Virus record (IMG/VR): IMGVR_UViG_3300022540_000923
Location: 1 to 42,693 of that record
Origin: a virus
Reading direction: 5' to 3' (one strand)
DNA: 42,693 nt
The position numbers were made by a program, and so were the translations under genes. Each line of letters opens with the position of its first letter. Position 1 is the stretch's first letter. Positions 2,257 through 42,693 of the stretch are shown piece by piece. The notes under the pieces were generated by a model that was given only the letters and a program-made list of their open reading frames with translations, was not told the DNA's origin and made no database searches.

Positions 2257-2571
2257 ATGAAAGTGATTGACAAATTGAAATGGTTTACCCAGAAAGACAA
2301 GGAATACGGGGACTTGAGGCACACCCTTTTTAATAGTAACGGTTCAGGTTATATCATAGCTCTACTGTCCCATTATTCAAACCCAAGATTCGCTGTATGG
2401 AAGGAAGGAAAATCCACCAGTTTGAGCGCTGATTTCGAATTAGTGGATGGGGTACTAAAAACCATCACCAGAGGGGAATATTTCGATGTTATTGACGAAA
2501 TAATATCGCTTTTGAACGAAATTCTCGTTTCTGAGTATGAAGAGGGGGCCCTAAGTGACCAATCCTTTTAG
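2257..2571 (+). CDS. Hypothetical protein (104 aa) coupled to the helicase gene
   Basis: I chose the ATG at 2257 because it follows the AGGAGATTAGAA leader used by most early genes here; in-frame starts further upstream lie inside the terminator-like hairpin. The protein is a mixed alpha/beta small protein with an acidic C-terminal helix (DVIDEIISLLNEILVSEYEEG). I recognise no family. Its 3' end overlaps the helicase start at 2555 by 17 bases, so the two are probably translationally coupled. Confidence 0.65.
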   Translation: MKVIDKLKWFTQKDKEYGDLRHTLFNSNGSGYIIALLSHYSNPRFAVWKEGKSTSLSADFELVDGVLKTITRGEYFDVIDEIISLLNEILVSEYEEGALSDQSF

Positions 2572-4021
2572 AAGGACTATTGTAGGCCCTCCTGGAACCG
2601 GAAAGACCACGAAAATTATCTCTTTGGTGCAAGAGTATGTATCATCGGGGACCGACCCCAAGAGAATTGGGTTGGTCACATTCACCAAAGTGGCCGCCAA
2701 GGTTCTGGCTAAAAGAGCCGGTATTGGGTCGGAATTTGTCGGCACCATCCATTCGATAGCCTTTAAACAAGCTGGGATCAACCGGTCTCAGGTCGCGGAT
2801 TACGAATTTTACCGCGATTTGTCCAAAAAAACCGGAATTGAAATCACCAACAGGAACGTTGAGGACAATGACCAGATTGAATTGGGCGATGAATTGTTAG
2901 CGATTTACCAGTATTCCAAAGCTATACTGGCCGAAGATGCCAAAATGGTTTATATGGAATCCCATAGGCCGGGAAGTTATTCCGTCTTCAAGTATTTTAT
3001 TGACAGCCTGGAGAGCTTCAAAAAAGGTTATGGAGTCATTGACTTCAATGACATGTTGGAAATGGCTGTAGGGGCTGGGGTTCCAGATTTGGATATCCTT
3101 TTTGTGGACGAAGCCCAGGACCTTTCCCCTCTTCAGTGGAAACTGATCAACTATTGGGCCACTGAAATCCGTACTGTCATCGTCAGTGGTGACGATGACC
3201 AAGCAATTTTCTCTTGGGGTGGGGCTGACCCACAAGGAATTTCCAAATGGAAAGAATTACACCAAGCAGAACAGGAAATCCTCGGGCAGAGCTACCGTGT
3301 ACCCGCGAAGGTACACAAAGCCGCTGAGTCTGTTATTCGAAGGGTGAAAGTACGGATTGACAAGGAGTACAAGCCCCGGCCCGAGGAAGGCACCGTCCGC
3401 ATGTTTGGGGACATTGGGCAACTAGAAATTGAACATGGCGAAAAATGTTCAATCCTGTATCGCAACCATTCATTGCGTGGGGACATCGAAGACCATTTGA
3501 TTGCGCTAGCGGTCCCGTACCGGGTTCTGAACGGGAAACCTGGAGTCAATGAATCTCCCATGGCCCAAGCGATTAAAAATTGGGTCACAGCCTTTGATGA
3601 TTTCAAAATGTTCGGAAATTTTAGATTAACCGATCCGGAAATCAATAAAATGAAAAGGTTCATGCACCCCGGTGCTTTCCGGGCGCTTAAGAATGGGGAT
3701 TTTGACATATATGACCATTGGGGGAAAGCGTTTACTGGAAGCACCAGAATTTTAAATTATTTGTCCAGAATTGAGGCCAAGTATGGGAGCATTCGTGGCA
3801 TTCCTACAATCCAACTTTCCACGATCCATGGCTTTAAGGGTGATGAAGATGACCGAATAATCCTTTTGGATGGCATGGGGCAGAAAACTAGTGAAAATTT
3901 CCACAAGGACCCCGATTCTGAATACCGGGTGTTTTATGTTGGTGTGACCCGAGCCAAACACCAACTGGATATTGTGACAGTGGACAACCCAGTATTGGTG
4001 GGGGTTTTTGATGGAATTTAG
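2555..4021 (+). CDS. UvrD/PcrA-like superfamily 1 DNA helicase
   Basis: 488 aa, GTG start inside the end of the previous gene. All SF1A motifs are visible in order: Walker A GPPGTGKTT (about residues 11-19), motif Ia VTFTKVAAKVLAKR, Walker B LFVDEAQDLS, motif III SGDDDQAIFSWGGA, motif IV LYRNHSL, motif V LSTIHGFKGDEDD, and motif VI VFYVGVTRAKHQL. It is shorter than UvrD (about 720 aa), lacking most of the 1B/2B insertions. It should be an ATP-driven 3'-5' translocase. It overlaps the polymerase gene by 11 bases, so the two are co-translated and probably work together at the fork, since no DnaB-type replicative helicase is present. Confidence 0.95.
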   Translation: MTNPFRRTIVGPPGTGKTTKIISLVQEYVSSGTDPKRIGLVTFTKVAAKVLAKRAGIGSEFVGTIHSIAFKQAGINRSQVADYEFYRDLSKKTGIEITNRNVEDNDQIELGDELLAIYQYSKAILAEDAKMVYMESHRPGSYSVFKYFIDSLESFKKGYGVIDFNDMLEMAVGAGVPDLDILFVDEAQDLSPLQWKLINYWATEIRTVIVSGDDDQAIFSWGGADPQGISKWKELHQAEQEILGQSYRVPAKVHKAAESVIRRVKVRIDKEYKPRPEEGTVRMFGDIGQLEIEHGEKCSILYRNHSLRGDIEDHLIALAVPYRVLNGKPGVNESPMAQAIKNWVTAFDDFKMFGNFRLTDPEINKMKRFMHPGAFRALKNGDFDIYDHWGKAFTGSTRILNYLSRIEAKYGSIRGIPTIQLSTIHGFKGDEDDRIILLDGMGQKTSENFHKDPDSEYRVFYVGVTRAKHQLDIVTVDNPVLVGVFDGI

Positions 4022-5855
4022 AAACATCAACAAATTTTGTGCCATTGATATCGAATCCACCGGCGTGGATTGGAACCGGGATAAATTGTTTGGTTTCTCG
4101 GTTTCGGATTCCCAAGGATCAGCTTATTATGATATTCGCGAAACCCCAAAATCCCTGGATTGGTTGCGGGACCAGCTTAAAACCAATATCAATCGTGTGG
4201 TGAACCACAATATCAAATTTGACATCCATATGCTTCGTGGAGCAGGGGTGGCCTTGGACCCCGCAATTTGCGATTGTACCATGATTCGGGGGGCGTTGAT
4301 CAATGAGCATTTGCACGAATACAATCTTGATGCCCTGGCCAAAAAATATTTGGGCATCCGGAAAGATTCAGACATTTACGTGGAGTTGGCCAAAATTTTT
4401 GGTGGCATGGCCACTCGAAACGCGCAAGTGAAAAATTTTCACAAAGCACCAGTTGAATTGATGGCCCGGTATGCCAAACAGGACACCAATGTGGCCATGG
4501 AGCTATGGAAATGGCAAGAGAAAGAAATAACCAAACAGGGGTTGGGGCAAATATACAATTTTGAACGGCGACTGTTTCCACACATCGTGGAAATGGAAAG
4601 GCGAGGAATTCGTGTGGACCCCGCCGCCGCTGAAATTCAAATAGAAGCCCTGACCAAAGAGGTTGATTTGCTTCGGAAATATTTGGATGATATCGCTGGA
4701 TTCCCGGTCAATCCGAATCCGTCCGGAAGCATTAAAAAATTGTTCGAGCCCAAGAAGAGGAAAGACGGGTTGTGGGAAACTATCGATGGCACGGTCATTG
4801 GGACGACCAAGAAAGGGGCACCGTCCCTGGCCAAAGAAAGTCTGGAGAAAATGAAACACCCAGCCGCCGCCGTGATCTTGAAAGTACGGAAATACATGAA
4901 AACCCGAGACACCTTTATTAAGGGACATATCCTGGGGCACGAATATCAAGGAAAAGTTTTTCCCACGATCAACCAGACCAAAGGTGATGAGGGTGGTACC
5001 GGCACCGGGCGATTGTCCTATGTAGAACCGGCACTCCAACAAATCCCTGCCCGCGACAAAGAAATCGCCGCTTTGGTCCGCCCGATTTTTATCCCAGATG
5101 AAGGGCAAGCTTGGGCATACGGGGATTTGGATCAACATGAGTATAGGGTGTTTGCACACTATGTCAACAACCCTAAGATCATTGAAGAATACCGCAGCAA
5201 CCCCAATTTGGACTTCCACACCAAGGTTGCTGATTTGACCGGGCTTCCAAGGAATAAACCGGCTAATGGTGGGCCAAACGCCAAGCAACTGAATCTTGGA
5301 ATGGTTTTCAATATGGGGTCTGGGGCTATGGCAGACGCGGTGGGACTCCCATGGACAGAAGACAAATTTACCACTAAATTTGGAGAAACGATTGTTTTCA
5401 AAAAGGCTGGTCCTGAGGCCTTAGCTATGGTGGAGAGCTACCACAAAATGGTTCCAGGAATCCGAGAAATGGCCCGCAAGGCCCAAAATGTGGCCGAGCG
5501 CCGGGGGTATATCAGAACCATTTTGGGCCGCCATATCAGGTTCCCCAAAGGGTATGGGGCGAGAAAGGCGTCTGGCCTGATTTACCAAGGTTCATCGGCG
5601 GATCTGAACAAACTCAATATCGCGCTCACTTGTGAATATTTAGCTTCCGAATATCCCGCCGCCCGACTTCTTTTAAATATCCACGATGAATATAGTTTAT
5701 CGCTCCCGGATAACGCGGAGTCCATCAAGCACTTGAAAGAAATCAGGCGACTGATAGAAGACAAGAAAGATTTACTCAAGGTTCCAATACGGATCGATTT
5801 TGGGAAACCGTCTAAAAATTGGTGGGAAGCCACCAAAGCGGAGAAAGCAACATGA
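4011..5855 (+). CDS. dpoZ: Family A DNA polymerase with 3'-5' exonuclease (DpoZ candidate)
   Basis: 614 aa. I chose the ATG at 4011 over the preceding TTG. The exonuclease is intact: Exo I AIDIESTG (D13, E15), Exo II NHNIKFDIHM (D71), Exo III YAKQD (Y154, D158). The polymerase shows TGRLSYVEPALQQIP, motif A YGDLDQHEYRVFAHY (D372), motif B AKQLNLGMVFN (K425) and motif C NIHDEYSL (H558-D559-E560). There is no 5' nuclease domain. By hand alignment to E. coli Pol I the O-helix is odd: the R754 position is Gly, F762 is Leu429 and Y766 is Phe433, while K758 is kept. With purZ, mazZ and datZ nearby, this is probably the polymerase that incorporates diaminopurine; that specificity is inferred. Confidence 0.9.
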   Translation: MEFRNINKFCAIDIESTGVDWNRDKLFGFSVSDSQGSAYYDIRETPKSLDWLRDQLKTNINRVVNHNIKFDIHMLRGAGVALDPAICDCTMIRGALINEHLHEYNLDALAKKYLGIRKDSDIYVELAKIFGGMATRNAQVKNFHKAPVELMARYAKQDTNVAMELWKWQEKEITKQGLGQIYNFERRLFPHIVEMERRGIRVDPAAAEIQIEALTKEVDLLRKYLDDIAGFPVNPNPSGSIKKLFEPKKRKDGLWETIDGTVIGTTKKGAPSLAKESLEKMKHPAAAVILKVRKYMKTRDTFIKGHILGHEYQGKVFPTINQTKGDEGGTGTGRLSYVEPALQQIPARDKEIAALVRPIFIPDEGQAWAYGDLDQHEYRVFAHYVNNPKIIEEYRSNPNLDFHTKVADLTGLPRNKPANGGPNAKQLNLGMVFNMGSGAMADAVGLPWTEDKFTTKFGETIVFKKAGPEALAMVESYHKMVPGIREMARKAQNVAERRGYIRTILGRHIRFPKGYGARKASGLIYQGSSADLNKLNIALTCEYLASEYPAARLLLNIHDEYSLSLPDNAESIKHLKEIRRLIEDKKDLLKVPIRIDFGKPSKNWWEATKAEKAT

Positions 5856-6024: not shown

Positions 6025-6270
6025 ATGGCGTACGATAACACAAATTCCGGGGCATTATTCAAAAACGATCGGAAAACGAAAGAAACACACCCGCTGTATA
6101 CTGGGACTCTAAATGTTGAAGGGGTCGAATATTGGATGTCAGCGTGGTTGAAGGACGGGAGGACGGGAAAGTTCATGTCGATTGCCCTAACTGCAAAGGA
6201 CGTGCCACCCCAACCGAAACCCGCGTCCGCCCCCGTTGGGGACGACGAACTTGATGATATCCCATTTTAA
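6025..6270 (+). CDS. Small phage protein with canonical SSB C-terminal tail
   Basis: 81 aa. The ATG at 6025 was chosen because it follows AAAAGGAGAGAGAATAAA; the frame is open further upstream but has no ribosome site there. The body (NSGALFKNDRK, HPLYTGTLNVEGVEYWMSAW, GKFMSIALTAKD) looks like the short OB-like 'GALFKN' proteins found in phage and mobile elements. A Pro-rich linker leads to a tail ending DDELDDIPF, practically the same as the bacterial SSB tip DDDIPF. That tip docks onto host replication and repair proteins. The protein could be the phage SSB or a decoy for host SSB partners. It sits directly downstream of the polymerase. Confidence 0.7.
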   Translation: MAYDNTNSGALFKNDRKTKETHPLYTGTLNVEGVEYWMSAWLKDGRTGKFMSIALTAKDVPPQPKPASAPVGDDELDDIPF

Positions 6271-6282
6271 AGGAGAAATGGA

Positions 6283-6624
6283 ATGAGTGGAGAAAATGAA
6301 TTTTTAAGCAACCTCAAAAGTTATGGGGTTGGAAATCTTTTGGATGAAATGACAGTCGAGCAGGAAAAAGTCATTGAGGCTGTGATGAGGACCGGGAGAC
6401 AAGGAAAACTGGTCATTGAATTACAGTACAAACGGACTGGGCAGAACAAAATCCAAGTGGGGTCGCAAGTCCGACCACAGGTCCCACGGGAAGCTTTGGA
6501 AACTGTCCAAATGTTTACCGATGATCAGAATCGGTTGCATGATGAAGACCCCACGATAGAAAAAGTGGACCCGGGGAATGTGACCCGGATTGAAGATCAC
6601 AAAAAAGTTGTGAACCGAGTTTAA
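6283..6624 (+). CDS. Conserved phage protein (113 aa), unknown function
   Basis: ATG start after AAAGGAGAAATGGA. It has an N-terminal helical part, then GKLVIELQYKRTG, KIQVGSQVRPQVPRE and a C-terminal LHDEDPT followed by a charged tail. This order is typical of a small phage protein usually found directly before DUF2303 genes, as it is here. There are no enzymatic motifs. The pairing with DUF2303 suggests a shared job that has not been described. Confidence 0.7.
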   Translation: MSGENEFLSNLKSYGVGNLLDEMTVEQEKVIEAVMRTGRQGKLVIELQYKRTGQNKIQVGSQVRPQVPREALETVQMFTDDQNRLHDEDPTIEKVDPGNVTRIEDHKKVVNRV

Positions 6625-6658
6625 ATTTTCTTTAACTTTTAATCGAAAAGGATAAAAA

Positions 6659-7534
6659 TTGAGCCAATCAGAACAGAATATTATCGAATCGGCGGTCGAA
6701 CTCGGGAAAGAAAGTGCCGAGTTCCAGGAGTTGTATGACGACGGGGAACTAACCCATTTTGCTATCCCCCAGGGGCAAAAGGTGGTGGAGATCCGCAACA
6801 ACGCCGCCTGCCCCAACAGAAAGTCTGGGGACCGAAATTTTACCGAAACCAAGAGTTTCTGCCATTATGTGAATCTACACAAAACCCCAGCAACTTTAGT
6901 GGTCGCCGATGAAAAAACGGCTAAGGCAAAGGCCATTTTTAACGCCCACGGCGAGGAGCCTGGATGGGGAGATTTCACAACCCACCTGGATATTGGGTTC
7001 TCTAAACAATGGCGAATTTGGTCTAGTGCCGAGGGAAATCGCATGGACCAGTCCGGGTTTGCGGAATTCTTGGAAAACAACCGGACAGATTTCATGGTGG
7101 GCAACATCCCAGACGGGGATGGAAAAGAAATTGAAAACATTTCTGCCCTGGAACTTTCTTCGATTATCGAAAATTTGGAAGCCACCTTCCAGGAAAAATT
7201 TACCTCCAAGGTGGACCGGGTGTCGGGTCGTCGGGTTCTGCACTACGAAAACGACGAAGTCGGGAAAGGCACCCTTTCAATCCCCCGCCAATTCATTCTC
7301 GCCATCCCAATTTACAAGGGTGGGGATATTTTCCAAATTACGATTCGGATGCTCCACAGACTCGGAAATGGCCAGGCTAAATTTTTCTTCATTATTGATC
7401 AAGCTGAAGTTTTGAAGGAAAAAGCGTTTGACATGATCTGCAGAAGAATCAACGGTGGAAATGTTGGTTCCGAAAAAGATCCCGAAAAAGTGTTCGAAGG
7501 GGTCGGTATTGAGGTTCTTAAGGGCGATTTGTAA
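6659..7534 (+). CDS. DUF2303 (YfdQ-like) family protein
   Basis: 291 aa. The start is TTG, placed after AAAAGGATAAAAA; no ATG or GTG fits the conserved N-terminus. The family pattern is clear along the protein: a His-Phe-Ala-Ile-Pro-x-Gly segment, KSFCHYVNLHKTPATLVV (about residues 65-82), GWGDFTTHLDI, a Gln/Glu-containing aromatic WRIWSS, SGFAEFLENNR, and a C-terminal beta-rich half (FILAIPIYKGGDIFQI). DUF2303 proteins occur in prophages and phages without a known activity. A UUCG hairpin follows the gene and separates it from purZ. Confidence 0.8.
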   Translation: MSQSEQNIIESAVELGKESAEFQELYDDGELTHFAIPQGQKVVEIRNNAACPNRKSGDRNFTETKSFCHYVNLHKTPATLVVADEKTAKAKAIFNAHGEEPGWGDFTTHLDIGFSKQWRIWSSAEGNRMDQSGFAEFLENNRTDFMVGNIPDGDGKEIENISALELSSIIENLEATFQEKFTSKVDRVSGRRVLHYENDEVGKGTLSIPRQFILAIPIYKGGDIFQITIRMLHRLGNGQAKFFFIIDQAEVLKEKAFDMICRRINGGNVGSEKDPEKVFEGVGIEVLKGDL

Positions 7535-7574: not shown

Positions 7575-8618
7575 ATGGAGAAAGCTACTTTGATCTGCGA
7601 TTTGCAGTTTGGAAGCACTGGAAAGGGTTTGATTGCGGGGTATTTAGCCAAGCGCGATAAACCTGATACATTGGTTACGGCTTGGTCGGCCAACGCCGGA
7701 CACACCTATATTGATGAAACTGGAAGAAAATTTATCCACACCATGCTGGCCAATGGCATTGTAAGCCCTAATTTCGAAGTGGCTTTAATCGGGCCGGGAA
7801 GTCAACTGAATGTCGATAATTTAATGCGAGAAATCGACCAGAACCGCGACATTTTAGGAAAAGTGCCTCCCGTGTTTGTTCACGAAAACGCCTGTGTGAT
7901 CCAACAGGAGCATATTGACATTGAAGCCGGTCCAATGACTAAAATTGGTTCCACTAAAAAAGGTTGCGGAGCGGCTTTGATTGACAAAATCCGCCGCAAC
8001 CCGGACAAAAAAACGATTATTCGCGATTGGTTACCAAAAGGTGGGGCCTCTGGTTATTTTTCGGTGGTGACACACGCCCAATACATGGACATGTTAAACC
8101 AGGCCGAGAAAATTCAAATCGAAGGCGCACAGGGTTATTCATTGGGGATCAACAGTGGCCTTTATCCTTATGTGACTTCTCGTGAATGCACAACAGCACA
8201 AATTCTGTCGGACACCGTGGTCCCTATCAAAATGTTGGCCAAAGTGGTGGGTTCAGCGCGAACTTTCCCAATCCGGGTGGCGAATCGGCATGACGAAAAC
8301 GGAACGCAAATTGGATATTCTGGACCATGTTATGAAGACCAACACGAAATTGAGTGGGCACAAATCGGGATCAAACCGGAATTGACCACCGTAACCAAAT
8401 TGCCCCGTCGGATTTTTACTTTCTCCGAGCAACAAATTACCGAGGCCATCCAAATGTCTGGTGTGGACGAGGTGTTCCTAAATTTCGTAAACTATTTGCC
8501 TAACATCAATGAGCGGACCGCTATGATTGAAACTGTGAGCAGAATTGCGGATGAACAAGGTGGAAAATTGGCTTTCCTTGGTTTGGGGCCAAACCAAACC
8601 GCCGTGGTGGAGATTTGA
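7575..8618 (+). CDS. purZ: PurZ, 2-aminodeoxyadenylosuccinate synthetase (Z-genome key enzyme)
   Basis: 347 aa, shorter than PurA (about 430 aa). Family features: P-loop DLQFGSTGKGLIAGYLA (residues 9-25), NAGHT with His43, IGSTKKGCGAA, EGAQG (183-187), YPYVTSREC, TTVTK (271-275) and PRRI. In PurA the loop reads GDEGKG and its Asp is the catalytic base. Here it is Ser14, the replacement known from the PurZ proteins of Z-genome phages, which use dGMP instead of IMP. The expected reaction joins Asp to dGMP with ATP or dATP; host PurB then releases fumarate to give dZMP. The downstream mazZ start overlaps its stop (TGATG). Ribosome site AAAGGA. Confidence 0.93.
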   Translation: MEKATLICDLQFGSTGKGLIAGYLAKRDKPDTLVTAWSANAGHTYIDETGRKFIHTMLANGIVSPNFEVALIGPGSQLNVDNLMREIDQNRDILGKVPPVFVHENACVIQQEHIDIEAGPMTKIGSTKKGCGAALIDKIRRNPDKKTIIRDWLPKGGASGYFSVVTHAQYMDMLNQAEKIQIEGAQGYSLGINSGLYPYVTSRECTTAQILSDTVVPIKMLAKVVGSARTFPIRVANRHDENGTQIGYSGPCYEDQHEIEWAQIGIKPELTTVTKLPRRIFTFSEQQITEAIQMSGVDEVFLNFVNYLPNINERTAMIETVSRIADEQGGKLAFLGLGPNQTAVVEI

Positions 8619-9145
8619 TGAACGCGCAAAAATGTCACAAAAAAGGGTGTGGGGCCTATAATTCGAAAGTCCCAAACAACTGTGGGACTTTTCATTGTTT
8701 ACAAGATTGTATGGATTGGAGCCCGTTTAAGAATTGCGGATATCGTGAGTGTCCGTCGTGGAATGATGAATACCAACTTAATTGCGAACCGTTTCATGAT
8801 CCGACTGAATGTAACGCGTATACTCCGATTTCGGAAAAACCCCCGGATTTTCGGGAGTTGGTCAATGACATCATTTCATGGGCCGACGACGCGATCGGGA
8901 AAGATAGGACCGCTGAAAATGCTCTGACCAAAATGGTGATGGAAGAAATCCCAGAGCTTTTACACGCAGAACCTATTGATTTGCCGCTAGAGGCGGCGGA
9001 CATTGGGATTTTGTTCTTCGATTATTGCCACTTGAAAGGAATTGACATTTTTGAAGCCATGGCCAAAAAACATGCCATCAACAAAAAACGGTCCTGGGAA
9101 AGGGACCCTAACACAGGATTGATCCACCATGTTACCAAAAATTGA
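8618..9145 (+). CDS. mazZ: MazZ: MazG/DUF550-type nucleotide pyrophosphohydrolase with Cys-rich N-terminus
   Basis: 175 aa, ATG at 8618 sharing a base with the purZ stop. The C-terminal half (about residues 77-175) is an all-alpha NTP pyrophosphohydrolase: E110-x2-E113 (EEIPELL) and E125-x2-D128 (EAADIGILFFD) form the metal site. In Z-phages this enzyme cuts dGTP/GTP to the monophosphate and feeds PurZ. The first 65 residues hold nine cysteines (6, 11, 22, 27, 31, 40, 45, 56, 65) plus histidines, which looks like a small metal-binding or disulfide module. I do not recall this from described MazZ proteins. Assignment rests on the motif pair and on the purZ/datZ neighbours. Confidence 0.85.
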   Translation: MNAQKCHKKGCGAYNSKVPNNCGTFHCLQDCMDWSPFKNCGYRECPSWNDEYQLNCEPFHDPTECNAYTPISEKPPDFRELVNDIISWADDAIGKDRTAENALTKMVMEEIPELLHAEPIDLPLEAADIGILFFDYCHLKGIDIFEAMAKKHAINKKRSWERDPNTGLIHHVTKN

Positions 9146-9740
9146 AATACAAGATATTCATCGTCTCTCAAATGTGGCAAGGTGGCAAATCGTCCGTACG
9201 GAAAGACAAAGTGTTGCGGAGCATTCATTTAATGTTGCCTATATCGTGATCAATATGTTGGATCGCCTTAAAATAGGTTTTGGTTCCAAAGGTTTGACAT
9301 TTGACGGGTTTTCGGTAATAAAACACCACGCGGTGGAGTGGGCCATCTTTCACGACCTTTCAGAACTTTTTATTGGGGACATCCCGACTCCAATAAAAAA
9401 GAAAATGGCCAAACACGCCAGATCCAACAATTTTATGAAAAATTTTGAATCTGAGACTGTCCATGACAAGTTCCTGCAGATCCCGCCGGAAGTCAGGTAT
9501 AAAGTGCGGGACATAGTAAAAATTGCAGACATGATGGAGGCCATTTCCTTTTTAACTCGCCACAATAACGACAAAAAGCACTCCAGTATTATTTTAAAAG
9601 AAATCCATGATGATCTAAAGATTGCCGTGGCCGCGTTTATGGAGTATTTCCCGGAATACTCCTACCAAGGCGAGATTTTTAAAACCACTGTGGGTTCAAT
9701 GACTGGGAACATGAGTTTTAGCGACCAAAACTTTGTATGA
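9129..9740 (+). CDS. datZ: DatZ: HD-domain dATP triphosphohydrolase
   Basis: 203 aa, start inside mazZ (17-base overlap). It is an HD phosphohydrolase of the YfbR-like type: His32 in SVAEHSF, the His75-Asp76 pair in WAIFHDLSEL with Glu79, GDIPTPIK (83-90), and Asp134 in KIADMMEA. The segment ARWQI places Trp19 and Ile21 where, from memory, S-2L DatZ has Trp20 and Ile22, the residues said to stack on adenine and exclude a 2-amino group. The role is to remove dATP (to deoxyadenosine and triphosphate) so that the polymerase uses dZTP. The downstream nuclease gene starts with an ATGA overlap. Confidence 0.88.
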   Translation: MLPKIEIQDIHRLSNVARWQIVRTERQSVAEHSFNVAYIVINMLDRLKIGFGSKGLTFDGFSVIKHHAVEWAIFHDLSELFIGDIPTPIKKKMAKHARSNNFMKNFESETVHDKFLQIPPEVRYKVRDIVKIADMMEAISFLTRHNNDKKHSSIILKEIHDDLKIAVAAFMEYFPEYSYQGEIFKTTVGSMTGNMSFSDQNFV

Positions 9741-10213
9741 GCCGAATAACAAGGGAGCAAACCTTCAAAAACAATATCAAAATTGCCTTGCGCGGGCTTT
9801 GGAAATTAACCGAGATCGAAACCAGAACGGAAAATTTTGTTTCGGATTGGGCGTATACGGTCGGCCCCCAAGATTCTACGGGGATGCCGGGCGGCATTTC
9901 AGGTTGGATCGAGGTTAAAGCACTTCCGAAATGGCCCAAGAATCCAGAGTCCCCGGTAAAAGTCCCGCACCCCGAGCGGGTTGGGGGACAAGTCCGTTTC
10001 GCGTTAGGTGTACAAAAATTCCAAGGGCAATCGTGGTTTTTGGTGCAAATTGATGAGGACATTCTGTTGATTAGTCCGGCTGTAATGAAAATGTTTGCAT
10101 TGGGAAAATCGCCCAAAGAGGAGTGGTTTAGGTTGTGCAGATTGCGGTACGCGTCAATGGACCATTTCCGGAAAAACAATAGGGAATTTTTCAATGCTCT
10201 GTCTGGATTCTAA
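9737..10213 (+). CDS. PD-(D/E)XK-like nuclease, last gene of the Z cassette
   Basis: 158 aa, start overlapping the datZ stop by ATGA. The pattern is that of the restriction-enzyme/Holliday-resolvase fold: an N-terminal basic helix, Asp46 in PQDSTGMPG, then GWIEVKALP with Glu59 and Lys61, followed by a Gln/Arg helix (GGQVRFALGVQKF) and a hydrophobic strand (SWFLVQI). A D-x13-E-V-K arrangement is the catalytic signature of these nucleases. It could be a resolvase or recombination nuclease, or could degrade host DNA. Its tight coupling to datZ suggests expression with the Z pathway. The exact target is unknown. Confidence 0.6.
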   Translation: MSRITREQTFKNNIKIALRGLWKLTEIETRTENFVSDWAYTVGPQDSTGMPGGISGWIEVKALPKWPKNPESPVKVPHPERVGGQVRFALGVQKFQGQSWFLVQIDEDILLISPAVMKMFALGKSPKEEWFRLCRLRYASMDHFRKNNREFFNALSGF

Positions 10214-10214
10214 T

Positions 10215-10228
10215 GCAAATTTCGTGCC
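10215..10228 (+). promoter_or_regulatory. GCAA-N4-CGTGCC box (regulatory site copy)
   Basis: GCAAATTTCGTGCC matches the box found four times in the 35.78-36.04 kb control region. It lies just after the nuclease stop and upstream of the first copy of the duplicated promoter. Confidence 0.5.
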
Positions 10229-10247
10229 ACAAGGGTTTCCGTTAACG

Positions 10248-10339
10248 GAAATTGATCTTTGTCAATTCTGAATAAATTTCGTTGATTCGATATATTGACA
10301 GAATTGACAGGGTGTGGTAAATTGGGATCAGAAAACGGG
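10248..10339 (+). repeat. Duplicated 92-bp promoter/operator, copy 1
   Basis: Nearly identical in sequence and length to 10939-11030. It contains the inverted repeat TGTCAATTCTG (10260-10270) / CAGAATTGACA (10299-10309), a tandem TTGACAG pair and a promoter. Each copy ends in GAAAACGGG and is followed by a gene whose leader reads GATAAGGAGATAAA. Confidence 0.9.
10295..10323 (+). promoter_or_regulatory. Sigma-70-type promoter in repeat copy 1
   Basis: TTGACA (10295-10300), 17-bp spacer, TAAATT (10318-10323). The -35 box is inside the right arm of the 11-bp inverted repeat, so a protein binding the repeat would block polymerase. It would drive 10383-10966. Confidence 0.7.
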
Positions 10340-10382
10340 GAGAAGCCCCAAATGAAACAAACCAGAGATAAGGAGATAAAAA

Positions 10383-10718
10383 ATGAAAGTCTATAGCTAC
10401 GATTCAGCATTGTTGGAATTAGCGGAGCCATTCGAAGTCGATCAGGGGGCCACGATCAACGCAATCATGGTGGAACACGATGAAGTGTTCCAAATGGACC
10501 CGGATAGGAATGGATACGACATCGATCATTGCTTGCGGACAGACAAAGAATCCGGCGAGGAGGTTTTCGTTTTAATGATGGCGGATGGCGGATGGCGGGC
10601 GGATCTCTTTTTCTGCTCTACCGATGATGAAGCGGCGAAACGCGTTTGCCGGTCTTGGTTCAACGACCCTGAATATATGACTAAATTTACTGGCGGATCA
10701 AGCAAGAGTGGATTCTAA
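10383..10718 (+). CDS. Hypothetical protein behind repeat promoter 1 (111 aa)
   Basis: ATG start after ATAAGGAGATAAAAA. The protein is acidic, with no recognised domain. Features seen: many Asp/Glu in the first half (HDEVFQMDPDRNGYD), a central VFVLMMADGGWRADLFF hydrophobic block and a Ser/Gly-rich C-terminus. It is the first gene of a two-gene unit controlled by the inverted-repeat promoter. It may be an early host-takeover or regulatory factor, but nothing in the sequence identifies it. Confidence 0.6.
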   Translation: MKVYSYDSALLELAEPFEVDQGATINAIMVEHDEVFQMDPDRNGYDIDHCLRTDKESGEEVFVLMMADGGWRADLFFCSTDDEAAKRVCRSWFNDPEYMTKFTGGSSKSGF

Positions 10719-10741: not shown

Positions 10742-10966
10742 ATGAAACCGTATGGGGTGCCACGGGCACCGGAATTAGATGGCTGGCCCGATTTGGCTGA
10801 TATTCACAACTTTGGTTTGAAATCGTATTGGAATAAACTTCCGGGGAAGAATGGGGAGCGGAAAAACAGTTTCCGTAAACCAGCAGTAAAAGCCCGCCGA
10901 AGGAGAATTTGGAAAAAGAAAGCTAGAAGGGCGGGCAAGAAATTGATCTTTGTCAATTCTGAATAA
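10742..10966 (+). CDS. Small basic hypothetical protein (74 aa)
   Basis: ATG start after GATAGGGGATGAA. The C-terminal half is strongly basic (KARRRRIWKKKARRAGKK), suggesting nucleic-acid or ribosome binding. The last seven codons (LIFVNSE) and the stop are formed by the left edge of the second 92-bp repeat. Part of the protein end is therefore regulatory DNA, and the duplication probably landed in or rewrote this gene. No family recognised. Confidence 0.6.
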   Translation: MKPYGVPRAPELDGWPDLADIHNFGLKSYWNKLPGKNGERKNSFRKPAVKARRRRIWKKKARRAGKKLIFVNSE

Positions 10967-11030
10967 ATTTCGTGAATTCGATATATTGACAGAATTGACA
11001 GGATGTGGTAAACTGAAATCAGAAAACGGG
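10939..11030 (+). repeat. Duplicated 92-bp promoter/operator, copy 2
   Basis: Same 92-bp length and layout as copy 1: TGTCAATTCTG (10951-10961) and CAGAATTGACA (10990-11000), differing by a few substitutions. It overlaps the end of the 10742 gene. Confidence 0.9.
10986..11014 (+). promoter_or_regulatory. Sigma-70-type promoter in repeat copy 2
   Basis: TTGACA (10986-10991), 17-bp spacer, TAAACT (11009-11014), again with the -35 box in the inverted-repeat arm. It would drive the 11074 gene, after a leader containing ACAACCGGTC and a GATAAGGAG ribosome site. Confidence 0.7.
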
Positions 11031-11073
11031 ACAACCGGTCCCGTTAGTTGTAACATAGAGATAAGGAGATAAA

Positions 11074-23845: not shown

Positions 23846-26737
23846 CTATAAATACTTTGCGTTTTCTTCAAAAGGTTTTGTTTTTTCTGAAACGAATTTA
23901 TTCATCAATAAAAGAAGGTCCTCTTTGGTTTCCAATTTCCCCGTGATGATGTTTCCGTTGCTTTTCCCGTCCACCAAATCCCCAAATCCCCGGTAGGACA
24001 TATCCAAGCAGAAATTAAACAGGTAACCGCCTCCTTCGGTGAGGATATCCACGGCCTCCGAAACATATGGTATGGAGTCCGAAACAATCCGAATTGGCGC
24101 ATCCTCCAGCAAACCCCGCCAAATTTTGATTGCTTCTTGTGCCCTGGCCTTAATTTCTGGCGTAATTCTTCCAAACCGTTCATATTCAAATTTGTTCAAG
24201 TGGGCCAAATCCCGAATCCACAAAAACTTTGACAACAAACGATCTGGGTGCTTTTTGATTTCCCGTTCCATCAGGGGGAAATTTCGTTGAAAGCGCTCCC
24301 GACGTGTGATTTCGGTATCATACCCATTATGACAAATAGCCACTTCATTGGCAGGGATCACAAAAGTTTTACCCGGCCCCTCATTGACTCCGACTTCCGG
24401 GTGTTCATGGACCACGCCGTAAAATTTAATCCCTTTGTGATTTCTAAAAATTCTGGCGGGCAAATCAGTTTTTAAAAGCCCTGCAGGTTCGGCGCTAAAA
24501 TGGTGTTGCGCGATACTGTAAGAGTCAAACTGGTTGTTTCTAAAATATTTCAACACCCTTTCTGGCCACTGAAACACTTCATCGTCATCAATCCACAAAA
24601 TCCAATCGCACCCCGCCTTTTCAATAGTTTCATTCCTGGCTTCATCAAATCCGATTTCTCGTGGACTTCCAGTCAAACAAAACACATCTGCCCCGTATTG
24701 TTTAGCAATTCGGAACGCTTCGGAATCCTCGGCCCCGTCAACTCCGATAATAAATTCTGAGGCGAAAGAGACAGAATCCAATGTCCTTTTCAGTGACCCG
24801 GTATTGCCGGAAACAACCATACAACAGGAAACCGTTTGAATCGGGTTTTGGAAAATCAGTTTTTTGTTATAGTCAATTTTTCCAAGTTTCTTCTGGCTTC
24901 GTTTCCACCACCACACAAAATTTCCGAGTTTATCACCTGTCTTCGAATCAAAATCGTTGATATAGACAACATTAAACCCATCTTGGTCCCCGATGATGTC
25001 CAATATATCCTGTTCCTCAAAGTGGTGTAAATGTTCGAGTGGGTGGTCCTCTTCACCCCGGAATGCTTCCACAGGCCCCGCTGGAGTGGATATGATAACC
25101 GGCGCACCCAATTTTAGGTGTTTCAACAGCCCAGCCAGAAAACCGCCAAAATCATGAATGTGTTCCAAGATTTCCAGAGCAACAACTGCATCAAAATCGT
25201 TGTCAATTTTCGGGTGGTTGACATCTGGACTGTTCATCAATTTGACGTTGGTCAATCCGTTAGCGTCAATAAATTTGTTCCCGATGTCGATTTGCAATTT
25301 CGAAATATCGACTCCAACAAACTGCAGATTTGGAAACCTGTCAGCTAAGGCGGTTGTGACATGCCCCACACAACAACCGTAATCCAACACCTTGGCCCCG
25401 TCTGGAAGGTCGGCCAACTGGTCAATCACAGGCTGTAACCTCGGCATTGACAAGATTCTGTCGTATTTACCCAGGGAATGTTTGTTCCCGATGTCAATGT
25501 TGTATTCCGCAATGTTTTCATAAAAACGCTCGGATTCTTTGGTGGATTGAGAAAAGGTAGGGGCATCGACGTCTGGAGGAACCCCAGTCAACTTCTCTGC
25601 CGCAACCAAGTCCGAATTTCGGATCAACCCAGCCGCCACCGCGTTAACGTTCCTAGACAGTCTTACAAAATCGTCTAGGATAAGCCCTTCAAGGTCGTCC
25701 ACTGCGGCTTCAATACAATAATTTTTGGCTTTTTTCAGGGCCAATTCATGTCTTTTGTACCATGTTTCGAAATTCGACAACAACCCTTCAATTGCGCCAG
25801 CGAAATTCTCGACATCGGCATCCCACATACCACCCCCGGCTAGAGTTTCAGGGAGTGCCCCAACATTTGTAATGACCACTGGGGTGCCGCTGGCTTGTTC
25901 TTCCATCATGGTAATACAACTAGTTTCCTCAAATTCGGTGGGGTACACATGCAACGCCGCTTTCCCCATTAATTCGTACAGCTGTTTTTTCCCAAGGGGG
26001 CCATAATTCTTTACGTTTGGGAGTTCTTCACACCTTCCCCACAGATAATTGTAAAATTGGGCCATTTGTTCGGTGGTATTGTCGTACCCAGCCACCACCA
26101 ACTGGATTTCGGGGTCCAGTTTATACAACTGTTCCATGATTCCGCCGGGCTTCACGAGATTTTCGAGTCCCCGTTCCGGTCTGGAGGTATACAACAAAGT
26201 CTTTGAATTAAATTTCAAGCGACCGGCCTCTGGACTGAAATCTGCAAGATTTATGCCGTTTCGTAAAACTGAAATGAAACCATCGTTCAAGTCGTAGATC
26301 TCGGACACTTGTTTTTTGTGCCATTCTGACACCCCCAAAATTCGATCTGTGTTCCAAAGCATACTTGCCATTGCCCCGGCGTGGCGTTTTAATGCAAGAT
26401 CATGAGTCCAAAAATAATTCAATTTGGAATTAAACTTTTTATGGAAAACCCCCGCCGCTCTTTGGGCCAGTAAAACATCATGTGGGATCTCTGCCGCGTA
26501 TCGTTCGAAATTGGCCCCAAAGGGGGTGTTATTATCTGCTGGGCCGATCGGTAAATATTCCACGTTGTCAGTAAACGACGGTCCGTTTGTGTTGCAAAAA
26601 CAAATTACACGATGCCCACGCTTTGCCAATTCTTGGGACACAATAAGTCCCATAGTCTCAGAGCCCCCGAGACTTTTACCTGCTTTCAAAGTGTTCCCAT
26701 CAAAGGCCATGCCTGGGACATATACGATAATTTTCAT
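23846..26737 (-). CDS. Giant three-domain glycosyltransferase-methyltransferase-glycosyltransferase
   Basis: 963 aa; the ATG at 26737 overlaps the upstream stop (ATGA). Domain 1 (about 1-400) is a GT4/GT-B enzyme: LGGSETMGLIVSQELAKRGH, LLYTSRPERGLENLV and the E-x7-E motif EETSCITMMEEQASG. Domain 2 (about 440-570) is a class I SAM methyltransferase: KVLDYGCCVGHVTTAL, FVGVDIS, LEILEHIHDF. Domain 3 (about 630-870) is a GT-A/GT2 enzyme with the metal motif IDDDEV. It could build and methylate a glycan on virion proteins or on the host surface. It lies in the late operon between capsid and connector genes. Confidence 0.85.
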   Translation of the reverse strand: MKIIVYVPGMAFDGNTLKAGKSLGGSETMGLIVSQELAKRGHRVICFCNTNGPSFTDNVEYLPIGPADNNTPFGANFERYAAEIPHDVLLAQRAAGVFHKKFNSKLNYFWTHDLALKRHAGAMASMLWNTDRILGVSEWHKKQVSEIYDLNDGFISVLRNGINLADFSPEAGRLKFNSKTLLYTSRPERGLENLVKPGGIMEQLYKLDPEIQLVVAGYDNTTEQMAQFYNYLWGRCEELPNVKNYGPLGKKQLYELMGKAALHVYPTEFEETSCITMMEEQASGTPVVITNVGALPETLAGGGMWDADVENFAGAIEGLLSNFETWYKRHELALKKAKNYCIEAAVDDLEGLILDDFVRLSRNVNAVAAGLIRNSDLVAAEKLTGVPPDVDAPTFSQSTKESERFYENIAEYNIDIGNKHSLGKYDRILSMPRLQPVIDQLADLPDGAKVLDYGCCVGHVTTALADRFPNLQFVGVDISKLQIDIGNKFIDANGLTNVKLMNSPDVNHPKIDNDFDAVVALEILEHIHDFGGFLAGLLKHLKLGAPVIISTPAGPVEAFRGEEDHPLEHLHHFEEQDILDIIGDQDGFNVVYINDFDSKTGDKLGNFVWWWKRSQKKLGKIDYNKKLIFQNPIQTVSCCMVVSGNTGSLKRTLDSVSFASEFIIGVDGAEDSEAFRIAKQYGADVFCLTGSPREIGFDEARNETIEKAGCDWILWIDDDEVFQWPERVLKYFRNNQFDSYSIAQHHFSAEPAGLLKTDLPARIFRNHKGIKFYGVVHEHPEVGVNEGPGKTFVIPANEVAICHNGYDTEITRRERFQRNFPLMEREIKKHPDRLLSKFLWIRDLAHLNKFEYERFGRITPEIKARAQEAIKIWRGLLEDAPIRIVSDSIPYVSEAVDILTEGGGYLFNFCLDMSYRGFGDLVDGKSNGNIITGKLETKEDLLLLMNKFVSEKTKPFEENAKYL

Positions 26738-27684
26738 AGTAATTTTTTCCAAAAGTTTTCATAGATTTGAGCCCAATCCATGGCCGGAACTGGCCGATTA
26801 GACTCTTTCAAAACGGGGTTCCCCCCTACAAATTCCGAATAATCGATAAAATCACCCACAGTATTTTCAAGTGCCCCAACTTTGTTGACGATTGGAATAC
26901 ACCCCAACACTCTGGATTTTATCGCATTCAGACAAAACAACTCAGAATCTGGGCGTTGCAATGGTAATACCCAATATTCCGCTTTGCGGTACTGCTCGTT
27001 CAATTCATCCTTGCTCAAAGTCCCCAGAAAAGAAATGCCGGGTTGTTTAGCCAAGTTCAAAATTGCCCGTTTAAATTCAAAACCATTAGTGCCCATAACC
27101 CTGTCGAACAAATCAAATCCGTAAGCCACTTTTAATTGCATTTCTGGAAAATGACTTCGGATAGTTTTCCAGTCCTGCAGTAACTCTATCAGGCCCCTGT
27201 CGGGGGAACTGCAATAAAGCATTGTCCCATGCTCGGTCTTTTCGCCTGGTTCGACATCTATTCCGTGCGGGATGACCCGCCGCTTGTCGGTCCGCACAAA
27301 AAAATTGCGGCGTTGGTGGTATTCGGTCAAATTAACAAAATGGTCTACCAACGAAGTATCCCACACGCCTTCTACATCCGATGACCAGTGAATCTTAATT
27401 CGGGCATTCACACCCCGAACCCAAGGCGTATAATCTTTAAAAGTGATTACGACGTCATCCGGATTCGGCACAAACTGCGCTCTTGGGGAGTATTCAACTC
27501 CCTTCCGAAAAGCCCCCATTTCATCATGCTTCGGCGTATGGTACACTTTGACTTCATGCCCACTGGCGGCCATCTGTTCTGCCAAAAGCACTACGCACTC
27601 CTCAGAACCGCCCAACATTTCTTCAATATCATGGGGGGACCAACCTCCAGCAACCTCATTGGTAAAGATCTTTACAGAACTCAT
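26734..27684 (-). CDS. GT-B (GT4-like) glycosyltransferase
   Basis: 316 aa, start overlapping the stop of the 27681 gene (ATGA). N-terminal LGGSEECVVLLAEQMAASGHEV and C-terminal LYCSSPDRGLIELLQDW are close cousins of domain 1 in the next gene, so the two arose from a common ancestor. The donor-site motif is degenerate: where E-x7-E is expected the sequence is SELFCLNAIKSR, with the second Glu replaced by Lys. It may be inactive, or an accessory subunit to the giant protein. Confidence 0.8.
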   Translation of the reverse strand: MSSVKIFTNEVAGGWSPHDIEEMLGGSEECVVLLAEQMAASGHEVKVYHTPKHDEMGAFRKGVEYSPRAQFVPNPDDVVITFKDYTPWVRGVNARIKIHWSSDVEGVWDTSLVDHFVNLTEYHQRRNFFVRTDKRRVIPHGIDVEPGEKTEHGTMLYCSSPDRGLIELLQDWKTIRSHFPEMQLKVAYGFDLFDRVMGTNGFEFKRAILNLAKQPGISFLGTLSKDELNEQYRKAEYWVLPLQRPDSELFCLNAIKSRVLGCIPIVNKVGALENTVGDFIDYSEFVGGNPVLKESNRPVPAMDWAQIYENFWKKLL

Positions 27685-33610: not shown

Positions 33611-34444
33611 CTAGAAAAATTCAGATTCCATCGTTGCCCCAATACCGGGGGAGGTTACAATAATTTCTGCTTCATCGCCAAGGCCACCGACCAATAAAAT
33701 TTGTATGGCGTCCAAGGTCGGGTCTATCTGGTCGTCGTGTTTATGTGTCATTTGTGGAGAAAACCGACTAAATTCCGAAATATATTCTGTCATGAAATCT
33801 GCCGTGGGCACCACTTCCTTATTCGGCAGGAAAACCAACCCTGAAACCACATAGTTTATCAGGGCAAACACCCTGGAAGTCTTGTCCGTATCCCTAGGAA
33901 CTGCAATCACCGGGATGTAAACCCTACCCGCCATTTGATCCGAACCATCCCGCAAAGTTTGTATCAAGCCTATTCCACTTGACTTGTCTTCAATGTAAAA
34001 CCCATTTACGGGCTGTTCTGGCTGGTTGTGCTTTGTAAAAAAATCCCTGGCCGTTCTAATCAGTTCTGGTGCTTCCCATTTGCCCCTCTTCTGATCAATC
34101 AGGAAGATACCATCCCTGGTTTGGCCCCAACATTGAAAAACACTGAAATCATTTACGGTCTTGGTTTTTGATGCTGTGTCCGCCGTAATGATCTTCCGTA
34201 AAAACCCCTGCGGCAAAATGTCATAATATCTCCACCATTCAGTCTTAAAAATCTTTCCACCAACTGGGGCGGGATCTTGCATGTACTGCCCGTCGAAAAC
34301 ATACGGGTTGTTCTTAAGTGTTTCTATTTCCTCAAGGTTGTGTTTATACGGCCAAAGTGGACCGGGCAACAATCCATGCTCAATTGGTATCGCATATGGG
34401 TAATGTTTCACTTTATCAAAACCGGTAAATTCAGATGGTGCCAT
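33611..34444 (-). CDS. terL: Terminase large subunit, nuclease half (split gene)
   Basis: 277 aa. It covers the RNase H-like nuclease: a strand ITADTASKTKTVNDFS with two Asp (about residue 90), YIEDKSSGIGLIQTL, and HKHDDQIDPTLDAIQ with clustered Asp, the usual three metal-binding positions. The start (ATG at 34444) lies in the end of the ATPase half in the -1 frame; a GGTGA five bases upstream could serve as ribosome site. Either a true split terminase or an artificial frameshift. Confidence 0.75.
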   Translation of the reverse strand: MAPSEFTGFDKVKHYPYAIPIEHGLLPGPLWPYKHNLEEIETLKNNPYVFDGQYMQDPAPVGGKIFKTEWWRYYDILPQGFLRKIITADTASKTKTVNDFSVFQCWGQTRDGIFLIDQKRGKWEAPELIRTARDFFTKHNQPEQPVNGFYIEDKSSGIGLIQTLRDGSDQMAGRVYIPVIAVPRDTDKTSRVFALINYVVSGLVFLPNKEVVPTADFMTEYISEFSRFSPQMTHKHDDQIDPTLDAIQILLVGGLGDEAEIIVTSPGIGATMESEFF

Positions 34445-35157
34445 TTTTCACCGGAACCGCCATTCAAAAGCCAACCGCAAAAATCATCTTCGTGGAGCCT
34501 CTGCATAATGACTATGATCGGCGTTTCTCGATTATCCACCCGAGATTTTATTGTACTGGAGTACCTGTTTGGAAACCACATCCTCTTGGTATCCGAATAC
34601 ATATCATCTGGTTTTTGCGGGTCATCAATGATAATTGCACCTTGGAACCCTGGAAGTGACCTTCCAGCCCGAAAACCTATAATCTGTCCGCCACTGGAAA
34701 CTGCATAAAATGCCCCATTGGCATTCGTCTTCCAAAATCCTTTGGCCCTCGTATCATCTTTAGCCGAAAGCCCCCAAAGCAATTTGGAAATCGGATGGAT
34801 GACCTGTTCTTTCACTTTGGAAGAATTGTCCAAAGGTAAAACATCACCCCCTGAAACGTGTAAAAACCTGCACCCCGGATTCCTTACAAAAGCAAAGGAT
34901 GCCAATTGAATCACCCCAAGTTCTGTTTTGGTATAACTTGGTGGTATGTTTACTATCAGCCGCTTTATTTCTCCGTTCAACACCCGCAAAAACGTCTTTG
35001 CTAACAATGGGTGGTGCGGCCCTTCAATAAATGGTTGTTTTTCACGAAGCCCCAAAAAGAATTTGGTGTGGTCCATGAAATTGGTTTCTAGCCTATGCTT
35101 TAAAACAGCCAGTTGTTCTGGCGTAAAACCCTCGATTTTTTGTTCGAGATCAATCAT
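34408..35157 (-). CDS. terL: Terminase large subunit, ATPase half (split gene)
   Basis: 249 aa, starting at an ATGA overlap with the small terminase. A deviant Walker A (NIPPSYTKTE, about residue 70), an adenine/signal region (RFLHVSGGD), a Walker B AIIIDDPQKPDD (about 175-185) and the coupling motif TPIIVIMQRLHEDDF are visible. The frame ends at a TGA just after WHHLNLPVLIK, precisely at the ATPase/nuclease boundary, and the nuclease half continues in another frame. Confidence 0.8.
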   Translation of the reverse strand: MIDLEQKIEGFTPEQLAVLKHRLETNFMDHTKFFLGLREKQPFIEGPHHPLLAKTFLRVLNGEIKRLIVNIPPSYTKTELGVIQLASFAFVRNPGCRFLHVSGGDVLPLDNSSKVKEQVIHPISKLLWGLSAKDDTRAKGFWKTNANGAFYAVSSGGQIIGFRAGRSLPGFQGAIIIDDPQKPDDMYSDTKRMWFPNRYSSTIKSRVDNRETPIIVIMQRLHEDDFCGWLLNGGSGEKWHHLNLPVLIK

Positions 35158-38257: not shown

Positions 38258-39184
38258 ATGAACGTATTGAGTTTGTTCGATGGAATAAGTTGCGGGTTGG
38301 TGGCACTTAAGCGCGCAGGAATTAAAGTTGATAATTACTATGCTTCTGAAATCGACAAATGGGCGATTCAGACATCAGAAAAGAACTACCCTGAAATTGT
38401 CAGGCTTGGAGATATCGAGAATTGCCCAGAATGGAATCTACCAAAGATTGATATGATTATCGGCGGCCCACCATGCCAGGGGTTTTCTATGGCCGGGAAG
38501 CGTTTGAATTGGGATGACCCGAGATCACAGTTGTTTTATAAAGCGATTGAATTAATTCATGATCTAAAACCGAAATATTTCTTGATTGAAAATGTCAGGA
38601 TGAAAAAGGAGATCAGGAAAGAACTTGATGATTTTTTGGGGGTTGAATCTATTGAAATCAATTCTGCTTTGGTGAGTGCCCAGTATAGAAACAGGCTTTA
38701 TTGGACCAATATTGAAGGAATTGAACAACCGAAAGACAAGGGTTTGGTGTTGAAGGATATTATTGAAGACGGGGCGGTAGATAGAGACAAGACGTTCTGC
38801 CTTGACGCGAATTACTTCAAAGGTGGGAACTTGAAAAGTTACTTTGAGAAGCACAGACGCCAATTGGTGTTTAGTGGTTGCGCACTAACGGGCGAGGCCG
38901 ATATTAAAACTTATGATTTAAATAAGAGGACATATGGCCAACTTGGGAAATGCCCCACAGTTAGAGCTGGGACAGGCGGCCATCATGAACCAAAAATGAC
39001 ATTGCCACCAAACAAATGGAGAAAACTCACGCCTTTGGAGTGTGAACGGCTCCAAACACTGCCGGACGATTATACTTTTGGTGTAAGTAACACACAACGG
39101 TACAAATCGATCGGGAACGGCTGGACTGTTGACGTTATCGTGCATATCTTTAACAGATTAAAGGAGATTAGAGATGGAAATTGA
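38258..39184 (+). CDS. DNA (cytosine-5) methyltransferase
   Basis: 308 aa with all core motifs in order: motif I LSLFDGISCGLVALKRAG, motif IV GGPPCQGFS (catalytic Cys near residue 73), motif VI FLIENV, motif VIII QYRNRLYW, a short target-recognition region, motif IX KLTPLECERLQTLPDDYT and motif X SIGNGWTVDVI. The start follows AAAGGAGATTAGAAAT. There is no partner endonuclease gene, so it is an orphan enzyme, probably shielding the phage DNA from host restriction in addition to aminoadenine. Recognition sequence unknown. Confidence 0.92.
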   Translation: MNVLSLFDGISCGLVALKRAGIKVDNYYASEIDKWAIQTSEKNYPEIVRLGDIENCPEWNLPKIDMIIGGPPCQGFSMAGKRLNWDDPRSQLFYKAIELIHDLKPKYFLIENVRMKKEIRKELDDFLGVESIEINSALVSAQYRNRLYWTNIEGIEQPKDKGLVLKDIIEDGAVDRDKTFCLDANYFKGGNLKSYFEKHRRQLVFSGCALTGEADIKTYDLNKRTYGQLGKCPTVRAGTGGHHEPKMTLPPNKWRKLTPLECERLQTLPDDYTFGVSNTQRYKSIGNGWTVDVIVHIFNRLKEIRDGN

Positions 39185-42405: not shown

Positions 42406-42693
42406 ATGAATCAAATAGAAATTGGGGGAATATTAGAAAAGCACAAAAAATGGGTTCACGGCGGCGGCGGTGAACGCGCGAACTTGAGAGGCGCGAACTT
42501 GAGAGGCGCGTACTTGGAAGGCGCGTACTTGGAAGGCGCGAACTTGAGAGGCGCGAACTTGAGAGGCGCGAACTTGAGAGGCGCGAACTTGGGAGGCGCG
42601 TACTTGGAAGGCGCGAACTTGGAAGGCGCGAACTTGGAAGGCGCGAACTTGAGAGGCGCGAACTTGAGAGGCGCGAACTTGGGAGGCGCGTAC
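42406..42693 (+). CDS. Pentapeptide-repeat protein, N-terminal part (partial, continues at 1-343)
   Basis: ATG after AAAGGAGATTAGAA. A 24-residue N-terminal cap ([20 protein letters not shown]-type) leads into 14 complete pentapeptides plus a partial one, running off the window. With the left end this gives at least 22 repeats, then the C-terminal domain. Central Leu residues point inward and the variable positions point outward in this fold. It follows the consensus promoter at 42006. Confidence 0.88.
42478..42693 (+). repeat. 15-bp tandem repeat coding pentapeptides (right part)
   Basis: Fourteen complete 15-bp units and one broken one. Only codon 2 (AAC/TAC) and codon 4 (AGA/GAA/GGA) vary. 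It is the same array as bases 1-121, and the window was opened in it. Confidence 0.95.

Follow-up and report, generated by a model that had tools for sequence, protein, structure and literature searches.

Does an uncultured phage with a compact purZ-mazZ-datZ gene cluster build its genome with 2-aminoadenine (Z) instead of adenine, and has such a replacement left a trace in the genome itself? We addressed these questions for one virus record from IMG/VR, 42,693 bases long, the whole of which is referred to below as the window.

Composition and gene order of the Z cassette

An open reading frame check of the window yielded four overlapping genes at 7575-10213 (purZ, mazZ, datZ and a nuclease gene), with the polymerase gene dpoZ and an SSB gene upstream. 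The ATG of mazZ at 8618 overlaps bases of the purZ stop codon, and the dpoZ frame spans 4008-5855, with the likely ATG at 4011. The genes of the region are as follows:

2555..4021, plus strand: UvrD/PcrA-like helicase (PF00580, 2.2e-23; phrog_1967; homologues lie 5' of dpoZ in Z-phage loci)
4011..5855, plus strand: DpoZ, family A polymerase with a 3'-5' exonuclease domain (NF038380, structure 7PBK, clade residues)
6028..6270, plus strand: SSB, single-strand DNA-binding protein (phrog_18154, 4.1e-18; homologues adjoin dpoZ in many Z-phage loci)
6283-6624, plus strand: 113-aa protein with no assigned family, between SSB and purZ
6659-7534, plus strand: DUF2303 protein (PF10065, 9.1e-38), between SSB and purZ
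7575..8618, plus strand: PurZ, succino-2-amino-deoxyadenylate synthase (NF038379; S14, TTVT 271-274 and N306; tree)
8618..9145, plus strand: MazZ, with a DUF550/MazZ-1 domain at about residues 75-173 and a Cys-rich N-terminus at about residues 1-70 (7ODY, conserved metal ligands)
9129..9740, plus strand: DatZ, HD-domain dATP triphosphohydrolase (phrog_7076, 5.6e-28; 6ZPA, 2.8e-6; S-2L active-site residues)
9737..10213, plus strand: PD-(D/E)XK nuclease, Hjc/RecU Holliday-junction-resolvase-like (phrog_2165; E, D, E-x-K; model and fold search)

At the level of sequence, the identities of the cassette genes are backed by matches far beyond chance. Profile and structure matches bear out the four overlapping genes with PurA-, MazG-, HD- and PD-(D/E)XK-type identities that an earlier note on this DNA had described, and the family A polymerase that it placed upstream is DpoZ (NF038380, 862 bits against a cut-off of 500). 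The cassette had been called complete, and it contains all four known components (PurZ, MazZ, DatZ and DpoZ), whose catalytic residues and gene order match those of phages with proven Z-DNA. The system is less novel than the note implied: PurZ relatives are encoded in 205 annotated phage records, PurZ0 included, and in 373 IMG/VR stretches when an alignment served as the query (the window's PurZ as a single-sequence query gave no matches in IMG/VR). The Z system and its completeness are thus already known from hundreds of phages, and the window adds a new member.

The UvrD/PcrA-like helicase is the first gene of a conserved Z-phage replication block. In Acinetobacter phage SH-Ab 15497 (MG674163), the order is the same, UvrD-DpoZ-SSB-PurZ-MazZ-DatZ-nuclease, with PurZ about 56% and DpoZ about 58% identical to those of the window; the window, however, has two extra genes between SSB and purZ (6283..7534), for which no homologue was found among the Z-phage loci fetched for comparison. 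Salmonella phage PMBT28, Klebsiella phage K21lambda1 and Providencia phage Kokobel2, which have different hosts, also share the order of the window (PMBT28 from UvrD, Kokobel2 from DpoZ onward) and encode PurZ proteins 55-56% identical to that of the window. Cyanophage S-2L carries PurZ, MazZ-1 and DatZ, as in the window, in a single datZ-mazZ-purZ cluster, and its solved structures match, but it encodes PrimPol instead of DpoZ (PMC8065100). Vibrio phage phiVC8 is more distant (PurZ 45%, DpoZ 44% identical), with a polymerase of the same clade but with MazZ-2 where the window has MazZ-1. In PurZ0 systems (Arthrobacter phage Wayne, Gordonia phage Ghobes), dZTP is likewise made from dGMP by a PurA-derived enzyme (PMC12884076), but the nucleotide pools are controlled by DutZ, DmtZ and DUF5664. 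A megablast search with the first 25 kb of the window against 50,697 phage records detected no near relative.

Both ends of the record lie within one 15-bp tandem repeat, CGCGAACTTGGAAGG, present in about 22 copies in total (1-120 and 42476-42690), and the gene order runs on across the ends as in SH-Ab 15497. The shared repeat and the continuous order make it probable that little of the genome is missing and that it is circular or circularly permuted. Immediately downstream of the cassette, near-identical DNA stretches at 10210-10431 and 10775-11056 surround the starts of the genes at 10383 and 11074; they were noticed through alike translations of minus-strand frames (PHPVNSVNIS...RNLFRIDKDQF) and are possibly a repeated leader or regulatory element. 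Among the structural genes, 23846-27684 encodes a 968-aa glycosyltransferase-methyltransferase-glycosyltransferase protein and a second glycosyltransferase, for which virion glycosylation is a possible role. The large terminase may be split at 33611-35157, where a match to the Terminase_6C nuclease domain (33611-34444) overlaps a frame without a Pfam match (34408-35157); two separate genes, a frameshift or a misassembly could account for this.

PurZ, DpoZ and DatZ

The PurZ protein scores 374 bits against the NCBI curated model NF038379 (cut-off 300) and also matches PF00709 in Pfam, whereas PurA equivalog models score far under their cut-offs. In alignments with characterised members, S14 replaces the catalytic Asp of E. 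coli PurA, a TTVT loop occupies 271-274, and N306 stands where PurA and PurZ0 carry Asp. These residues correspond to positions among those named PurZ-specific in S-2L (S23, T273 and Q308; PMC8342488). In a quick maximum-likelihood tree of 99 proteins, the window's PurZ falls inside the PurZ clade, with SH-Ab 15497, PMBT28, Kokobel2 and related contigs as its neighbours, apart from PurZ0 and E. coli PurA. The earlier note had proposed PurZ phylogeny as a check, with branching inside cellular PurA as the refuting outcome; PurZ groups with PurZ proteins, outside PurA. Two other assignments were rejected: a PurZ0-type system, given T15 and N306 where PurZ0 has Glu and Asp and its separate clade in the tree; and an ordinary PurA, given the replacement of both PurA Asp residues (S14, N306), equivalog scores below cut-off and a tree position outside PurA.

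DpoZ matches structure 7PBK at 4.5e-159 and retains the exonuclease acids D14, E16 and D72, together with the Leu, Phe and Gly described for the phiVC8 clade (PMC8599892), to which its sequence assigns it. DatZ matches phrog_7076, annotated as dATP triphosphohydrolase, and the S-2L DatZ structure at the E values given above, and is 24-30% identical to characterised members. It keeps the Arg, Trp, Ile, Pro and Lys residues that contact dATP in S-2L DatZ (PMC8065100); because these are partly common to 5'-nucleotidases/5'-deoxynucleotidases, its dATP specificity is a prediction.

MazZ and its Cys-rich N-terminus

MazZ matches PF04447 (2.7e-5) and, more strongly, S-2L MazZ (7ODY, 3.6e-12). Its structural model superimposes on 7ODY with a TM score of 0.85-0.88, far ahead of other MazG proteins, and the metal-binding residues and an Arg are conserved in the alignment. 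The mazZ gene sits between purZ and datZ, and its product keeps the metal ligands.

The N-terminal part differs from those of the nearest relatives. MazZ-1 N-terminal fusions vary (PMC8342488), and in the nearest relatives MazZ-1 is fused to DUF5664 (PMC12884076): PMBT28, K21lambda1 and Kokobel2 all encode such fusions, and MazZ of SH-Ab 15497 combines DUF5664 with a long C-terminal part, whereas S-2L MazZ is unfused. In the window, residues 1-70 are instead rich in cysteine, with about ten such residues arranged in repeats of the C-x2-[YW] type. An N-terminal DUF5664 was considered and rejected: residues 1-76 have no Pfam match even at E 10, one spurious match aside. Searches of Pfam, PHROGs, annotated phages and IMG/VR gave no match to the stretch, and nothing like it occurs in the MazZ proteins of 80 IMG/VR loci; the fusion appears to be new. 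The structural model is unreliable here (pLDDT below 50), and a zinc-binding role for the Cys-rich part is a guess.

The fourth gene encodes a predicted resolvase-like nuclease

The nuclease encoded at 9737-10213 has no Pfam match but belongs to phrog_2165 (7.9e-16), as do the genes that occupy this place in SH-Ab 15497, PMBT28, Kokobel2, BUCT555, Bm1 and ZP6; the phiVC8 member lies one small gene further downstream. The alignment keeps E28, D46, E59, K61 and Q85, with the Asp column shifting in a second alignment. The AlphaFold model (pLDDT 82) found Hjc and RecU as its best Foldseek matches (E 6e-4 to 2e-3, TM about 0.4-0.6). By phmmer, the protein matches the nucleases of Z loci at 1.4e-6; a small HMM built from cassette nucleases without the window did not match it. 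The gene follows datZ in most named Z-cassettes compared. Among 73 IMG/VR loci with enough 3' sequence, a homologue was detected directly after datZ in 13 and elsewhere nearby in 14, and was undetected in 46, which makes the gene frequent but not obligatory. A tblastn search with two cassette nucleases matched Z-phages and phages of Pseudomonas, Stenotrophomonas and Bordetella; the two of the latter loci that were inspected belong to Mesyanzhinovviridae. In the Mesyanzhinovviridae phages LKO4 and FP1, the phrog_2165 nuclease adjoins a dCMP deaminase (L101:5998-6396, L102:7998-8396).

The PD-(D/E)XK assignment of the earlier note is upheld, but its plain label "nuclease" is better replaced: judging by the modelled fold, the fourth gene product is best read as a predicted Holliday-junction-resolvase-like enzyme. 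The PHROG label "DNA helicase" for phrog_2165 looks wrong, the modelled relatives folding like Hjc/RecU resolvases. A restriction-modification reading was considered and rejected. An improbable alternative is that the enzyme is no junction resolvase but attacks host A-DNA while sparing Z-DNA, by analogy with some T4 nucleases that spare modified phage DNA. The position of the gene after datZ in most named proteobacterial Z-cassettes compared would fit such a role, as would the tblastn matches in Z-phages or in the Pseudomonas, Stenotrophomonas and Bordetella phages, the two inspected loci of the latter being from Mesyanzhinovviridae, a family whose Yuavirus members reportedly hypermodify thymidine (PMC11946847). 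The fold, however, most resembles Hjc and RecU junction resolvases, many IMG/VR Z loci lack the gene near datZ, and the sharing with Mesyanzhinovviridae may reflect related replication modules, not function. Together with the helicase and SSB, the resolvase-like nuclease would most likely form a linked replication and recombination module.

Avoidance of GC-only palindromes

If Z replaces A, every restriction site that contains an A:T pair is chemically altered, and GC-only sites alone stay exposed. We counted 6-bp palindromes by their number of A:T pairs, with the terminal repeats of the window masked. Only 8 GC-only palindromes are seen in the window versus 47.2 expected, whereas palindromes with four G/C and one A:T pair are close to expectation (143 versus 159). 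As a control for coding, synonymous codons were shuffled 500 times within genes, preserving proteins and codon usage. Under this control, GC-only palindromes remain depleted (7 observed versus 49.5 plus or minus 7.1, z -6.0), with observed/expected ratios (O/E) of 0.83, 0.92 and 1.01 for one, two and three A:T pairs.

The same pattern was sought in other genomes, mostly in the first 40 kb of each record. For 0, 1, 2 and 3 A:T pairs, the median O/E values are 0.43, 0.80, 0.87 and 0.94 in 40 Z-phages and 0.81, 0.74, 0.84 and 0.94 in 35 control records, comprising 28 random IMG/VR contigs (checked for PurZ absence only), five canonical named phages and two Mesyanzhinovviridae. The sets were compared by the log2 contrast between classes 0 and 1, a statistic devised after the counts of the window had been seen and then tested on the other genomes. 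It separates Z-phages from controls with a Mann-Whitney p of 5e-9, and of 2e-7 once the Z-phages are collapsed into groups at 60% PurZ identity (22-23 groups). In a regression with GC content, the Z term has t -6.5 and the GC term t 2.4. The contrast of the window, -2.33, is below those of all 35 controls. The signature is not exclusive: AP22, a non-Z phage with no known Z genes, shows a Z-like but weaker contrast (-1.26), and several Z-phages, S-2L among them, show none. Acinetobacter phage Petty has the opposite contrast, with an O/E of 0.09 for palindromes with one A:T pair and 0.47 for GC-only ones. No previous description of this trace came up in a targeted full-text literature search, although such a search cannot prove that none exists.

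Depletion confined to GC-only palindromes is a signature independent of the cassette; it too points to Z-containing virion DNA and suggests that, in nature, A-containing restriction sites are shielded by Z. We consider it likely that host restriction selects only on the GC-only sites of Z-phages, which lose these palindromes and keep the rest, the window being among the strongest cases; the contrast could then allow a test for Z-DNA from sequence alone and would argue that restriction escape maintains Z in nature. A less probable cause, although one of some weight, is that the loss reflects the particular restriction enzymes of the hosts, or base composition, and not Z. The contrast in AP22 and the modest effect of GC content both lean that way. 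Nevertheless, the contrast holds across the 22-23 PurZ groups and after adjustment for GC, survives codon shuffling in the window, and differs from the controls, which avoid both palindrome classes or neither.

The window also encodes a C5-cytosine DNA methyltransferase (38258-39184; PF00145, 4.4e-50), which could protect some GC-only sites beyond the reach of Z. Such an enzyme is present in 4 of the 56 records searched, which makes it accessory to Z-phage biology.

Predicted pathway and extent of base replacement

With the gene identities, catalytic residues, synteny, tree position and palindrome signature observed here, analogy to characterised relatives in enzyme activity and virion DNA chemistry argues that the cassette very probably lets the phage build its genome with Z for adenine. 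This was the central proposal of the earlier note; the components, the PurZ tree and the palindrome signature support it, and it is from these that we infer the base composition. By the pathway worked out in S-2L, SH-Ab 15497 and phiVC8 (PMC8342488, PMC8065100, PMC12884076), MazZ would convert dGTP to dGMP, and PurZ would join dGMP and aspartate, with ATP or dATP, into N6-succino-2-amino-dAMP, which host enzymes would turn into dZTP. DatZ would destroy dATP and DpoZ would prefer dZTP, so that replication would yield Z:T pairs, and Z would render A-containing sites resistant to host restriction enzymes.

Two observations count against this explanation, namely the low identity of DatZ (24-30%), whose conserved residues overlap those of 5'-deoxynucleotidases, and the non-exclusive palindrome signature, weaker in AP22 and missing in S-2L. 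The divergence of DatZ would also fit a working cassette that still lets some dATP enter virion DNA, as would the S-2L triad, which gave only partial replacement when expressed in E. coli (PMC8342488); yet DatZ and a DpoZ-clade polymerase are both present, the combination of fully substituted phages, and A:T-containing palindromes are barely avoided, so that partial replacement has a slim chance of being correct. Even more remote is the reading that the genes feed ordinary purine metabolism, PurZ using IMP as PurA does, in a phage with unmodified DNA. PurZ does descend from the PurA superfamily, as the PF00709 match attests, but S14 and N306 replace two Asp residues of PurA, the PurA equivalog models score far below cut-off, the protein lies outside both PurA and PurZ0 in the tree, and a DpoZ-type polymerase would be purposeless.

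PurZ-like genes in bacterial genomes

A scan of bacterial genomes detected a PurZ-like gene with PurZ residues on a 994-kb contig of a Pseudomonadota MAG (L304:4968-6011). It lies between genes for a cytidylate kinase and a Ham1-family pyrophosphatase, followed by one for an S1-domain protein, probably ribosomal protein S1. One relative genome encodes a 63% identical protein between cytidylate-kinase-like and Ham1-like genes (L310:1498-2535). The motifs QFGSTGKG and LNFANY mark the PurZ-like genes of the two genomes. No PurA above cut-off was found in either genome, and the PurB superfamily gave distant matches only. These genes might stand in for PurA or provide a cellular route to Z.

Implications

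The window widens the set of Z-phages by a complete MazZ-1/DpoZ system with about 56% identity to the nearest described phages. To a specialist, the novelty would lie in the Cys-rich start of MazZ and in the palindrome trace. The resolvase-like gene, placed after datZ in most of the named Z-cassettes, offers a defined target for biochemical work on Z-DNA. Of greater weight than the cassette is the palindrome contrast, as an in-sequence trace of the role that Z plays for phages in nature; it is testable on hundreds of purZ contigs and might be adapted to other base replacements.
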